Source: Phascolarctobacterium sp. (GTDB lineage Bacteria > Bacillota > Negativicutes > Acidaminococcales > Acidaminococcaceae). From it: 51,078 nt of DNA. The notes beneath the pieces were generated by a model that was not told the DNA's origin, did no database searches, and worked only from the letters and a program-made list of their open reading frames with translations. Position 1 is the first letter of the stretch; every line of letters starts with the position of its first letter. Shown here piece by piece: positions 29,171 to 39,290 of this stretch. The DNA lies in NCBI GenBank assembly GCA_017457085.1, contig JAFTID010000083.1, positions 1 to 51,078 on the forward strand. The letters are read 5' to 3'. The translations under genes were made by a program, and so were the position numbers.

Positions 29171-29202
29171 AAACGTGTCAGAAGTGCTGGATTACAAGGC
29201 GC
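29171..29202 (+). repeat. Fragment of the dispersed structured repeat
   Basis: Thirty-two bases that match the first arm of the copy at 37100-37220 with three differences (AAACGTGTCAGAAGTGCTGG start). The rest of the element is missing, replaced by the terminator at 29216. It starts 11 bases after the rqcH stop, as other copies abut gene ends. Confidence 0.75.
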
Positions 29203-29215
29203 CAAAAAATAAAAC

Positions 29216-35973: not shown

Positions 35974-36094
35974 AAATTTGTTAGAAGTGCCGGAAAGCGC
36001 GAAACAGCGCAACTTATGAAGCGAAGGCGTACTAAACGTACGTCGAGCAAATAAGCAAGCTGTGACAAAGCATAACGGTGCTTATAACAAATTT
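35974..36094 (+). repeat. Dispersed structured repeat, copy 1
   Basis: About 121 bp with an outer inverted pair (AAATTTGTT / AACAAATTT) and nested stems ACAGC (36004-36008)/GCTGT (36059-36063) and CTTAT (36013-36017)/ATAAG (36051-36055). They enclose the conserved apex GGCGTACT-AA-CGTACGTCGAGC. It abuts the yajQ stop codon. See the copies at 37100 and 38171. Confidence 0.85.
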
Positions 36095-36586
36095 TTAACG
36101 CATGTTTATGAATTGTAAGTCTACACCATAGTCTCCCGCTTTCAGCATTTGAATAACTGCTTGCAGGTCATCTTTTTTCGCACCGGAAACACGCACTTGG
36201 TCGTCTTGAATTTGCGCAGTAACTTTCAATTTAGTTGCTTTGATGGCAGCAACAATTTTTTTGCCATTTTCTTTAGAAATGCCTTGTTGAATTTCGCATT
36301 GTTGACGAACGGTGTTTTTAGCTGCCGGTTCAATTTTACCAGGAACTACTGCACGCAGGGGTACGCCGCGTTTAGCCATTTTTTGGCGCAGCATATCGAT
36401 GATTGCACCCAATTTATATTCGTCTTCAGCTGCAATTTTAATTTCTTTTTCGCCTAATTCAATGGTTGCATTGGAACCACGGAAGTCGTAGCGTTGGTCG
36501 ATTTCTTTTCTAACTTGGTTAACGCAGTTATCCATTTCTTGCATATCTACTTGAGAAACAACGTCAAAGGAACTATCTTTAGCCAT
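36095..36586 (-). CDS. yajQ: YajQ family nucleotide-binding protein
   Basis: 163 residues from the ATG at 36586, seven bases after GGAGGT (an ATG two codons earlier touches that site). SSFDVVSQVDMQEMDNCVNQ, RYDFRGSNATIEL and the two KH-like halves are typical of UPF0234/YajQ. Family members bind nucleotides, and cyclic-di-GMP in Xanthomonas. Function here unproven. Confidence 0.95.
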   Translation of the reverse strand: MAKDSSFDVVSQVDMQEMDNCVNQVRKEIDQRYDFRGSNATIELGEKEIKIAAEDEYKLGAIIDMLRQKMAKRGVPLRAVVPGKIEPAAKNTVRQQCEIQQGISKENGKKIVAAIKATKLKVTAQIQDDQVRVSGAKKDDLQAVIQMLKAGDYGVDLQFINMR

Positions 36587-36633
36587 TTTCATACCTCCGA
36601 AAATTTTAATATCTTAGTTATTGTACCATAAAT

Positions 36634-37050
36634 TTATGCTTTTGTGGAAGAGTGTTCCTCAGGCATCGGTTTTCCCCCACTCTTTTTCATATATTTATGT
36701 TCTTCAGCAATCTCTTTTATAAGCTCCAAGCCACTCCAAGCAGCGTTGTGTTGAGTGAGCATTGCTTTAAGTTCAATGCGTTGCAGCTTGCTTTTTCTTA
36801 TTGCCACCAGCAGTTTATCTAAAGTAGGTCTGTCAAATCCACACAGGAAAATCATTTCTTCTGTGGCTTCGTCACCAGAATACTTTTCTTCAACAGGTTC
36901 AATGCCTTTTACGCCAGCAAGATAGCCTACAGGTTGCAACATATCTTCACGGGTAACAGCTTTTACCTGCGCCTTGCACAAAAGTGCTACCATCTTTAAG
37001 ATTTGTAAGCGTTCTGGAGAAAAATTATAAGCGAGTATTGTTCTAAGCAT
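36634..37050 (-). CDS. DUF3783 domain protein
   Basis: 138 residues from the ATG at 37050, five bases after GGAGG; the in-frame ATG at 37062 overlaps that site. MLRTILAYNFSPERL, MIFLCGFDRPTLDKLLVAIR and LKAMLTQHNAAWSGLELIKE match DUF3783, a small family of unknown role common in Firmicutes. Stands alone, with repeat copy 2 just upstream. Confidence 0.82.
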   Translation of the reverse strand: MLRTILAYNFSPERLQILKMVALLCKAQVKAVTREDMLQPVGYLAGVKGIEPVEEKYSGDEATEEMIFLCGFDRPTLDKLLVAIRKSKLQRIELKAMLTQHNAAWSGLELIKEIAEEHKYMKKSGGKPMPEEHSSTKA

Positions 37051-37099
37051 AAATGCCTCCATAATCTATATCTAACTTTAAATCATATCTCAACTTTTT

Positions 37100-37220
37100 A
37101 AACGCGTCAAAAGTGCTGGATAACAAGGCGCAACAAGATTGTGCCGCGAAGGCGTACTAAGCGTACGTCGAGCAAGCAATCGAAGTTGCAACACAGTTAG
37201 ACTGTGCTTTTCACGCGTTT
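37100..37220 (+). repeat. Dispersed structured repeat, copy 2
   Basis: Outer stem AAACGCGT / ACGCGTTT; nested stems GCAAC (37130-37134)/GTTGC (37185-37189) and GATTG (37137-37141)/CAATC (37177-37181); same apex GGCGTACT-AG-CGTACGTCGAGC as copy 1. The stem letters differ from copy 1 on both sides in a pairing-preserving way. The end overlaps the stop codon of the exchanger gene at 37220. Confidence 0.85.
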
Positions 37221-38149
37221 TAGAGAATGTACCACAAATAAGCACTGTAGGAAAGCAGCATTGCAATGCCACCCCAACGTTCCAAGGCCTTGGTCGGAAG
37301 TACGAATAGCAAAAGCATAAAGCTGGAAGCCAAAGCTACCCACATATCAAATTCGAAGGCTTTGGAGAAAGCAACAGGAGTAATCAAGGCAGAGAAGCCT
37401 ACAACGAAAAGAATATTAAAAACGTTACTACCCACGATGTTACCGATAGCAATATCCGCATTACCTTTACGCGCCGCCGCAACAGAAGTAAACAGTTCCG
37501 GCAAAGAGGTGCCAAGTGCAACGATGGTCAAGCCAATGAAGCGTTCGCTAAGTCCAGCGTATTGAGCAATTTTTGTCGCTGCGCCTACGGTTACGTGACT
37601 ACCTCCCATAATCAGCGCCAAACCTGCCACAGTCCACATTAATGCTTGGCTAATGGGGTAGCCAGCCACATCCTCAGTTTCTTCACCAGGGTCAGCTTGT
37701 TTAGTAACAATATACAAATAAAACAAGTAGGCACCAAACACCGCAGCCAAGAGCGCGCCATCTACCAAGGTAACAGCACCATCCAAGCCTTGTGCGTATA
37801 AGAGAGCAGTTACTGCAATCACAAAAGGTATTTCAATTTTAACGGTGGATTTCGCAACTTTTAATCTAGTAATAGCTGCCGAAGTACCTAAAATAACTAA
37901 GATGTTCAAAATATTACTACCTACTACGTTACCGATAGTAATATCTGCACTACCTTTAAGAGCTGCCGCCAAGCTTACTGCTGCCTCCGGAGTACTGGTA
38001 CCCATGGCAACAATCGTCAAGCCAATTACTAGCTGCGGAATACCAAAACGGGTTGCAATACTTGCAGCGCCTTCAACAAACCAATCAGCACCCTTACCGA
38101 GCATAAAGAAACCTACAACCAATAACCCGAATTGTAAAATTATATCCAT
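37220..38149 (-). CDS. CaCA-family cation exchanger under Mn2+ riboswitch control
   Basis: 309 residues with about 10 membrane segments, made of two inverted halves. Each has the alpha-repeat of the Ca2+/cation antiporter superfamily: GTSTPEAAVSLAAA with GNVVGSNILNI (about 51-85), and GTSLPELFTSVAAA with GNIVGSNVFNI (about 212-246). Annotation tools would say calcium/sodium antiporter (YrbG-like). The yybP-ykoY riboswitch in its leader suggests that Mn2+ export is the real role, or one of them. GGGGAGGAG precedes the ATG; repeat copy 3 lies between riboswitch and gene. Confidence 0.9.
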   Translation of the reverse strand: MDIILQFGLLVVGFFMLGKGADWFVEGAASIATRFGIPQLVIGLTIVAMGTSTPEAAVSLAAALKGSADITIGNVVGSNILNILVILGTSAAITRLKVAKSTVKIEIPFVIAVTALLYAQGLDGAVTLVDGALLAAVFGAYLFYLYIVTKQADPGEETEDVAGYPISQALMWTVAGLALIMGGSHVTVGAATKIAQYAGLSERFIGLTIVALGTSLPELFTSVAAARKGNADIAIGNIVGSNVFNILFVVGFSALITPVAFSKAFEFDMWVALASSFMLLLFVLPTKALERWGGIAMLLSYSAYLWYIL

Positions 38150-38170
38150 AAATTATCTCCTCCCCTATAT

Positions 38171-38290
38171 AAAAGCGTTAGAAGTACCGGAAGACAAGGA
38201 ACAGCGAAACTTGTGAAGCGATGGCGTACTTAAGTACGTCGAGCAAGCAAGTGAGCTGTGACACAGTATAACGGTGCTTATAACGTTTTT
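38171..38290 (+). repeat. Dispersed structured repeat, copy 3
   Basis: Outer stem AAAAGCGTTA / TAACGTTTT (imperfect); nested stems ACAGC (38201-38205)/GCTGT (38255-38259) and ACTTG (38209-38213)/CAAGT (38248-38252); apex GGCGTACT-TA-AGTACGTCGAGC. It lies in the 5' leader of the exchanger, between the riboswitch terminator and the start codon. Confidence 0.85.
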
Positions 38291-38301
38291 AAAAAATAAA
38301 A

Positions 38302-38441
38302 ACGAGACTATGCCATAAAGTCACAACAACTTTACAACAAAGTCTCGCTAATTACTTACAAAGCCGGATTCTTACGAATCGTACTGACGACTAGGTAAAC
38401 ATAACAATTGTTATGCCAGCTACTCCCTTTATGCTACGAGT
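38302..38441 (-). promoter_or_regulatory. yybP-ykoY (Mn2+-sensing) riboswitch with terminator
   Basis: On the minus strand the aptamer shows AAAGGGAGTAGC, then TACCTAGTCGTCAGTACG, TCCGGCTTTG and GCGAGACTTTG, in the order of the yybP-ykoY consensus. It is followed by a long terminator-type hairpin (CGAGACT...AGTCTCG, 38347-38303) with a T-rich tail. The class binds Mn2+ and turns on exporters by preventing termination. Identified by consensus recognition; not folded by program. Confidence 0.85.
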
Positions 38442-38519
38442 TTACTCTAAAAATAATTAAAAGTCAATTACTTTAACTATTATTTACATAAAAATCTTAT
38501 GTTCGTTAGAATAAACCGT

Positions 38520-39290
38520 TTAGTTCATAGCTGCTAACATTTTTTTAACGTAGTCTGCAATATTAGGTGCACCTTCCGCGCCGTGCTTTTCGATAATTTC
38601 TGCAATTCTGCAATCAACGACGATGCCATCTGCAATATTACCCATTGCTTTGCCTTCTGCGTAAGAACGTACGCGATAGCCAACTGCTACGGGAACATCA
38701 GTTACTTTACGAACAGCATCAACCATTTCAGCAACCTTTGCTTCTACTACGTCATTAGCCAGCACGCCGTAATAGGATACTGCGTATACATAGCCTTTAG
38801 CTTCTTTAGCAATCATTTCAATTCTGTGTTTAGAATTAGGAGTAATAATCGCAATCAAGGCAATGTTGCGAGGTTCGCAGTAAGGCAACAGTTCTTCTTT
38901 TTCTTCGTAGGGAACATCAGGAACAAGAATACCGCTTACGCCCGCCTCAACACAGTTGTCAAAGAATTTTTCACAACCATAAGTGTAGATGGGGTTCGCA
39001 TAAGTTACAAGTACAACCGGAATTTGAGTTTCTTGGCGGAGTTCTTTCAGCATGGTGAAGATTTTATCAGTAGTAGTGCCTGCTTCCAATGCACGAGCAG
39101 CAGATTTTTGCATTTCTTCGCCTTCAGCAACAGGGTCAGAGAAAGGAATGCCCAATTCGATAATTCCTGCGCCAGCTTCTTCCATGGCAAGAATCAATTC
39201 TTTAGTTGCTTCTAAGCTGGGGTCACCAGCGGTGATGGAAGGAATCAAAACTTTTTTATTATTAGCAAATGCTTTAGCAATTTTATTCAT
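38520..39290 (-). CDS. trpA: Tryptophan synthase alpha subunit, divergent
   Basis: 256 residues from the ATG at 39290, which overlaps the trpB stop (ATGAATAA). It cleaves indole-3-glycerol phosphate to indole and glyceraldehyde 3-phosphate in the canonical enzyme. The catalytic Glu ([10 protein letters not shown]) is present; the second acidic residue is Glu rather than Asp (PVAEGEE). The phosphate-binding loops are altered: GFGI is replaced by GYRV and GSA by VDC(R), and the flexible loop reads SYYGVLAND. Fold certain, full activity uncertain. Confidence 0.88.

Follow-up and report, generated by a model that had tools for sequence, protein, structure and literature searches.

What kind of element is a hairpin whose stems change from copy to copy and keep pairing, while its apex hardly changes at all? 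The question is raised by a stretch of 51,078 nucleotides from Phascolarctobacterium sp. (GenBank assembly GCA_017457085.1, contig JAFTID010000083.1, positions 1 to 51,078; the whole of this stretch is called the window below), which carries three such copies and one fragment outside its genes. The reading that we prefer, and to which we give about an even chance, is a non-autonomous, strand-specific mobile hairpin with the way of life of the REP (repetitive extragenic palindromic) and ERIC elements, which would be moved in trans and come to lie with its 3′ end at the stop codon of a gene on the opposite strand. Listed below are its copies in the window, with the gene ends beside them.

29171..29210, + strand: fragment of the repeat, the 5′ part of a copy with the 3′ part missing (blastn of 37 copies against the window).
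35974..36094, + strand: copy 1 of the hairpin repeat; apex at 36026-36048; fold of −44.5 kcal/mol on the + strand versus −32.3 on the − strand; 137.2 bits with the covariance model R1.
36095..36097, − strand: stop codon TAA of a YajQ-family gene (36095-36592, − strand; gene name from NCBIfam), adjoining without a break the T-run at the 3′ base of copy 1.
37100..37220, + strand: copy 2 of the hairpin repeat; apex at 37151-37173; fold of 37100-37221 −48.7 kcal/mol on the + strand versus −43.3 on the − strand; 119.4 bits with R1.
37220..37222, − strand: stop codon TAA of a calcium/sodium antiporter gene (37220-38149, − strand; gene name from NCBIfam), overlapping the 3′ base of copy 2.
38171..38290, + strand: copy 3 of the hairpin repeat; apex at 38223-38244; fold of −51.3 kcal/mol on the + strand versus −27.3 on the − strand; 136.2 bits with R1; the orthologous site of the sister genome G001 has no copy.

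A preliminary description of the window, made from its letters alone, had placed the three copies and their apex exactly where we found them. Its fragment, given as 29171-29202, is real and extends to 29210. It had also stated that copies 1 and 2 touch the stop codon of a gene; the contact is in fact closer than claimed, as the bases of each TAA share positions with the base stem of the element or follow on from it directly. Searching the window with cmsearch returned copies 1-3 and one weak reverse-strand echo of copy 2, and nothing else.

The fold was evaluated on 37 aligned copies from the own genome (G000; 1.93 Mb in 90 contigs, 92% complete), where the element is about 121 bases long and has several internal loops and a near-constant apex. 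We observed that 97.0% of the 1480 pair cells (37 copies, 40 pairs) were paired, and that pairing fell to 26–40% when the partners were slid. Changes on both sides occurred in 21 of the 40 pairs, amounting to 176 cells versus 52 in the shuffled alignments. The covariation score was 0.373 versus 0.170 for the shuffles, none of 500 being as high, and did not exceed 0.073 with the partners slid. Fourteen of the 40 pairs, nine of them in two inner helices, are invariant and hence uninformative on covariation, and the number of further pair types stayed within the shuffle range (44 versus 41.7; 64 of 500 shuffles). Among 90 hits aligned to R1, an alignment fitted to the model and including five rows that are reverse-strand echoes of full copies, 39 of the 40 pairs showed both-sided changes. 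The hairpin is not intact everywhere, the outer arms of one locus (L001) being unpaired. The covarying stems reported for the window therefore hold on the larger set, and the observation of a dispersed, covarying hairpin repeat is confirmed.

The exact core, GGCGTACTN{0,8}GTACGTCGAGC, occurs 37 times in the own genome, 18 and 19 times on the two strands, and the reversed pattern does not occur there. With R1 we found at least 56 matches in three genomes of the genus, the own among them, and 30 in a fourth. Copies at E ≤ 0.001 were present in 19 of 61 genomes (own included) and in 13 of 41 genera, and a deeper R1 scan gave at least 49 copies in G044, from another family of the class, and at least 26 in G034. 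The covariance-model search of the genome and its relatives thus brought out further copies, as the preliminary description had expected of a real family. In 18 further genomes, selected for carrying the exact core, R1 found copies in 17; the counts, all of them lower bounds, were at least 105, 58, 56, 26, 18 and 11 in the richest six, one to six in eleven, and none in one. The richest is a deltaproteobacterium (G466). Among the matches listed, the exact extended core was seen in Geobacter, Deltaproteobacteria, Myxococcales, Nitrospirota, Nitrospinota and Spirochaetes, and also in Holophagae, Gammaproteobacteria, Fibrobacteres, several Clostridia and Selenomonadales, and many Phascolarctobacterium bins. 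These records are mostly metagenome bins, and each presumably belongs to the phylum that its title indicates. Long hairpins around the same apex were present at nearly all of 25 loci inspected. The exact extended core is otherwise rare, being found in one of 398 genomes of a phylum sample (the own genome) and in one viral contig. Going by the core sequence and these record titles, the family spans several bacterial phyla. As the own genome and its sister genomes are metagenome bins, single copies are possibly misbinned.

The constraint on the fold lies on one strand, which we call the kept strand, that is, the strand with the stronger fold or the maintained pairing. The same strand folded better in all 37 copies of the own genome, by 15.7 kcal/mol on average, in 49 of 49 copies of G044 and in 32 of 32 of G466, and in only 10 of 14 of G470. 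Among the pair cells of alignment A1, G.T pairs numbered 142 versus 11 A.C, or 23 versus 9 when four near-constant wobble columns were excluded. Because each G.T pair is an A.C mismatch on the other strand, this excess marks one strand.

The same asymmetry was found locus by locus. We compared orthologous copies of sister species in 16 unique same-subtype comparisons; 47 duplicates were removed, a few of those that remain have a locus in common, and 24 pairs lacking a same-orientation core were excluded. Pair-keeping double changes numbered 11 versus 1.1 expected and pair-keeping single changes 30 versus 11.5; pair-breaking single changes were depleted (10 versus 51.6 expected), and pair-breaking double changes numbered 3 versus 1.4. 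The expected counts treat all base changes as equally likely, and a transition bias would raise the pair-keeping single changes but would not split G.T from A.C; newly arisen G.T and A.C pairs stood at 20 to 2 (P = 1.2e-4). Since pair-keeping changes are in excess, pair-breaking ones are depleted and G.T exceeds A.C, we concluded that the pairing of one strand is maintained in place. The earlier suggestion of selection on a folded RNA or DNA is thus supported, by the strong covariation and by pair-keeping change at orthologous copies, with the addition that the kept fold is that of one strand. Some copies do decay, as seen for L003 compared with L076 and L114.

Arms that vary between copies and stay complementary would also result if, without selection, template switching in a palindrome copied mutations from one arm to the other, and one hairpin collapsed to its outer arms is in keeping with this. 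However, such switching predicts no strand preference, whereas G.T and A.C differ strongly both at orthologous copies and in A1, even with the four wobble columns set aside; in addition, the apex with its flanking unpaired bases recurs, as judged by eye, in records of distant phyla. We therefore consider this explanation improbable.

Along the kept strand, the sequence 5′ of the hairpin in Phascolarctobacterium is poor in G, about 6% at −16 to −10 (123 copies) versus 13–16% of the same base within 20 nt downstream of ordinary stop codons.

Next, the placement of the copies relative to genes was determined, with gene ends called by a simple rule on open reading frames (ORFs). In the own genome the stop codon of an antisense ORF lies at the 3′ end of the element in 24 of 37 copies, and at the mirrored position in 3 of 37. 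In G044 an antisense gene lies downstream of 45 of the 49 copies, its stop codon within 40 nt in 34, and the 40 nt next to the 5′ end of the element contain no end of a sense gene. Forty of these 49 copies run against the replication fork (origin taken at dnaA, 2.07 Mb). However, of the nine oriented with the fork, eight face an antisense gene as well, which indicates that the orientation of the element is set by the gene and not by replication. Replication polarity was accordingly rejected as its cause, the G044 copies following the gene where gene and fork disagree. As to their distribution, all 49 copies found on the G044 contig (C6; 3.99 Mb, dnaA at 2.07 Mb) lie between 0.92 and 3.76 Mb, with none opposite the origin.

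Ordinary intrinsic terminators sharing an apex would also form a hairpin with an A-run and a T-run directly after stop codons, as is seen here. Against this stand the stronger fold, which is on the strand opposite to the mRNA, the sense copies within rRNA and tRNA operons (see below), and separate terminator-like hairpins that were recognised by eye after the element at several loci, and also where the element is absent. That the repeat is a set of terminators is therefore very improbable.

The contact with the gene is also one of reading frame. Across the genus, 125 elements were scored: 54 have an ORF running into the junction, 23 a stop codon upstream, 22 no ORF, and 26 were unusable. The junction codon was in frame in 37 of the 54 ORFs, 31 times as TAA (P = 1.4e-7 versus one third; orthologous copies are counted here). 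For the deltaproteobacterium G466, 32 of the at least 105 copies were fetched. Read in the direction of the gene, its element starts with GACGGC, GATGGC or the like, preceded by T in 25 of the 31 copies with this motif. Seventeen ORFs extend into the junction, and 13 of them have its codon in frame (12 TGA, 1 TAA; P = 3.4e-4 versus one third); at the other copies, five genes stop upstream within 60 nt and nine copies have no ORF. In the in-phase cases a T followed by the first two bases of the element, AA in the own genome and GA in the deltaproteobacterium, appears to make up the full stop codon, which would keep the end of the protein. We infer that the stop codon, as a T followed by RA, is the landing site of the element and not merely the place where insertions survive.

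Sister species differ in what they carry at the same site, by the presence or absence of a copy and by exchanged inner parts. Copy 3 of the window is missing from the orthologous site of G001, and the same site in G003 holds a copy in the opposite orientation. In 156 flank pairs of Phascolarctobacterium loci, which count overlapping loci more than once, 47 had no room for a copy, 104 had room and five were longer. The clearest empty site is seen on comparing L001 with L289, where the gene without the element ends in TGA and the junction has TAA, and the native sequence is picked up again some ten bases past the far arm; a copy is also absent on comparing L287 with L286. Among 33 unique comparisons with a same-orientation core, 17 showed a different subtype at the same site, and in 24 more pairs the core was absent or inverted. 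One nested copy was observed, in addition to the collapsed hairpin mentioned above. A pre-existing host palindrome as the target, which would supply the arms of the element, was rejected, as the empty site does not contain the arms of copy 3. Copies presumably still move.

If the repeat were a bacterial equivalent of the SINEs, a structured RNA that a reverse transcriptase copies, it would have a precise 3′ end and an untidy 5′ end. The 3′ end of the repeat does lie on a boundary and its 5′ side often has extra bases compared with the empty site; truncated copies, too few to count, comprise four without the 5′ part and one without the 3′ part, versus 70 complete ones. However, the Pfam domain RVT_1 was not found in nine copy-bearing genomes (G000, G002, G003, G019, G034, G045, G054, G055 and G056), and as it occurs in 6 of 19 copy-bearing versus 14 of 42 other genomes, it is not associated with the copies. 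A reverse transcriptase as the mover was therefore rejected, and a SINE-like origin is improbable.

No shared protein gene emerged near the copies either. In a comparison of 29 diverse loci, the best 60 protein pairs came from orthologous neighbourhoods (L100/L103 and L125/L127), from one well conserved protein (L042/L043) and from weak matches, and none of them pointed to a transposase; these pairs were not annotated, and no search for a parent insertion sequence was made.

The preliminary description knew of no named family for the repeat. In agreement with this, the Rfam covariance models gave no match at the window copies or in 16 loci. Literature searches by words of the core sequence, for such repeats in Geobacter, in Phascolarctobacterium or downstream of stop codons, or in wider terms, found among the papers listed none on this family by title or start of abstract, subscription papers and supplementary tables lying outside their scope. 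A possible likeness to integron attC sites was dropped, because the constant part of our hairpin is its apex and not its foot.

Among described repeats, the REPs come close in habit. As far as the available text of PMC3733652 goes, the GTAG and CGTC superfamilies of REPs measure 20–40 bp, with stems of 5–13 bp and, at one end, a GTAG or CGTC tag that is left unpaired; GTAG REP ends often supply a stop codon TAG, CGTC REPs were reported without a transposase, and REPs were reported less than 20 bp from gene 3′ ends in convergent cases and in several phyla (PMC3733652). Our repeat resembles these in being palindromic, dispersed, mostly intergenic, located beside gene 3′ ends (24 of 37 copies in the own genome; 34 of 49 within 40 nt in G044) and present in several phyla (PMC3733652). 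Unlike a REP, it is about 120 nt long in the own genome (~121 bases, against the 20–40 bp of REPs), has internal loops, keeps its apex constant and has no tag at the foot: the feet are an A-run and a T-run in the own genome, and GACGGC and GCCGTC, which are paired, in G466. It also has a fixed orientation to the gene, which the available part of that source does not describe for REPs (PMC3733652).

With 100–200 bp, a hairpin, many copies and no protein of its own, the repeat fits the miniature inverted-repeat transposable elements (MITEs) too. It is like ERIC, Correia, NEMIS, RUP and RPE in its size of 100–200 bp, its long hairpin and its mostly intergenic location (PMC2229807). Terminal inverted repeats, TA ends and target duplications are given for most of the small MITEs tabulated in the accessible part of that source, with one bacterial group entered for each (PMC2229807). 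Our repeat differs, as no duplication was recognised for it and it has one apex through several phyla. A survey of human microbiomes listed 250 palindromic candidate structured RNAs, of which 20 were not predicted as terminators; Phascolarctobacterium is not named in the portion of its main text available (PMC8040213). As for the possibility, raised at the outset, of a match to an already described REP, ERIC or MITE family, the habits are those of REP and ERIC and the size and hairpin those of a MITE, and the REP tag, the REP size and the linkage to a RAYT (REP-associated tyrosine transposase) are lacking. Because these REP tests failed and a MITE-type duplication is unproven, we regard the repeat as a variant of the small palindromic repeats and not as a REP.

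How a mobile hairpin of this kind might work can be outlined as follows. A putative enzyme acting in trans would recognise one folded strand of the element, this folded strand being the form that it reads, and the element would come to rest with its 3′ end at the stop codon of the opposing gene. Several observations weigh against this reading. The Y1_Tnp domain of RAYTs was not found in the own genome. Repeats flank the RAYT gene in GTAG REPs; here, 20 stretches surrounding long-type Y1_Tnp genes, of which 15 came from genomes with copies, contained no copy at all (short IS200-type genes were not examined in this way). Y1_Tnp is not associated with the copies, being in 10 of 19 copy-bearing versus 22 of 42 other genomes. 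A RAYT as mover in the own genome is thus disfavoured. At the empty sites, many of which are eroded, no clear target-site duplication was recognised, and as several of them look like remnants, absence may also mean loss. A very recent burst was not seen, as the closest copies of the own genome are 94.3% identical and the median is 73%. The depletion of pair-breaking changes at orthologous copies is unlike what dead selfish copies would show. As for the register, six of the 37 in-frame junction codons of the genus, a set that includes orthologous copies, are not stop codons. In G466, the preceding T is found also at copies without a gene, so that it is perhaps a part of the element, and survival may account for the register.

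The main rival of the mobile hairpin is an RNA element kept by the host, which may also hold together with a mobile origin. Here, antisense transcripts running into the 3′ end of a gene would fold, and cleavage or termination would follow at the hairpin; within rRNA and tRNA operons the element would aid the cutting of precursors; it was maybe mobile first and recruited later. The in-place keeping of pairs and the G.T excess at orthologous copies argue for it. So does the strand: the kept strand is antisense at genes, and in RNA operons it is in sense, with its 3′ end 2–5 nt ahead of 5S rRNA (at one locus of G055 and one of G034) and likewise ahead of three tRNAs in one locus of G054. These copies lie at L281 95-223, at L285 78-573 (four in tandem, G034) and at L043 968-1094, 1474-1601 and 1744-1870, and equal scores were obtained at several G055 contigs. 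In the part of the source available, ERIC in one of its orientations is reported to make the transcript upstream of it less stable (PMC2229807). However, no promoter-like signal was detected upstream on the kept strand (simple score 8.11 versus 8.13 shuffled), the sites in sister species are often empty or hold another subtype, and the six adjoining genes that were named (ArgC, LeuB, RuvB, D-Ala ligase, YajQ and the calcium/sodium antiporter) are unrelated and ordinary. We consider a host-kept RNA element possible, and less probable than the mobile hairpin. The constraint on pairing in place argues for a use of many copies by their hosts, which may go together with a mobile origin.

Two neighbouring features were noted. 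In G044 a second hairpin, with a constant apex ATTCAC..GTGAAT and a covarying stem, lies 126–134 bases from the element core at 15 places (e.g. L255 7513, L258 2265 and L269 2435), and nowhere else in the 280 kb fetched around copies and Y1_Tnp genes. In the window, the preliminary description had placed copy 3 beside a riboswitch; Rfam gave no match there at gathering score, and the only two matches in 38150-38560 scored far below theirs. At 38294-38353, 5′ of the calcium/sodium antiporter gene, is a hairpin AACGAGACT...AGTCTCGCT, which is present in sister species too and has no Rfam riboswitch match.

More speculatively, the mobile hairpin may belong to an old superfamily in at least eight phyla, a proposal to which we attach a tentative minority weight. 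A putative enzyme would read the apex on one folded strand and insert the element behind the T of a TAA or TGA stop codon, the first two bases of the element would rebuild that codon, and hosts would then keep the copies as one-way hairpins of the antisense strand at gene ends.

In the sources available, small palindromic repeats are mostly listed for one bacterial group each, and their spread is hard to explain without a linked transposase. In the present case a single hairpin can be recognised across distant phyla, with its constraint on one strand and its fit to the stop codon. Two questions can thereby be tested: by which enzyme palindromes lacking their own transposase are moved, and whether RNA or single-stranded DNA underlies the asymmetry between the strands. 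The covariance model built here already finds the copies.

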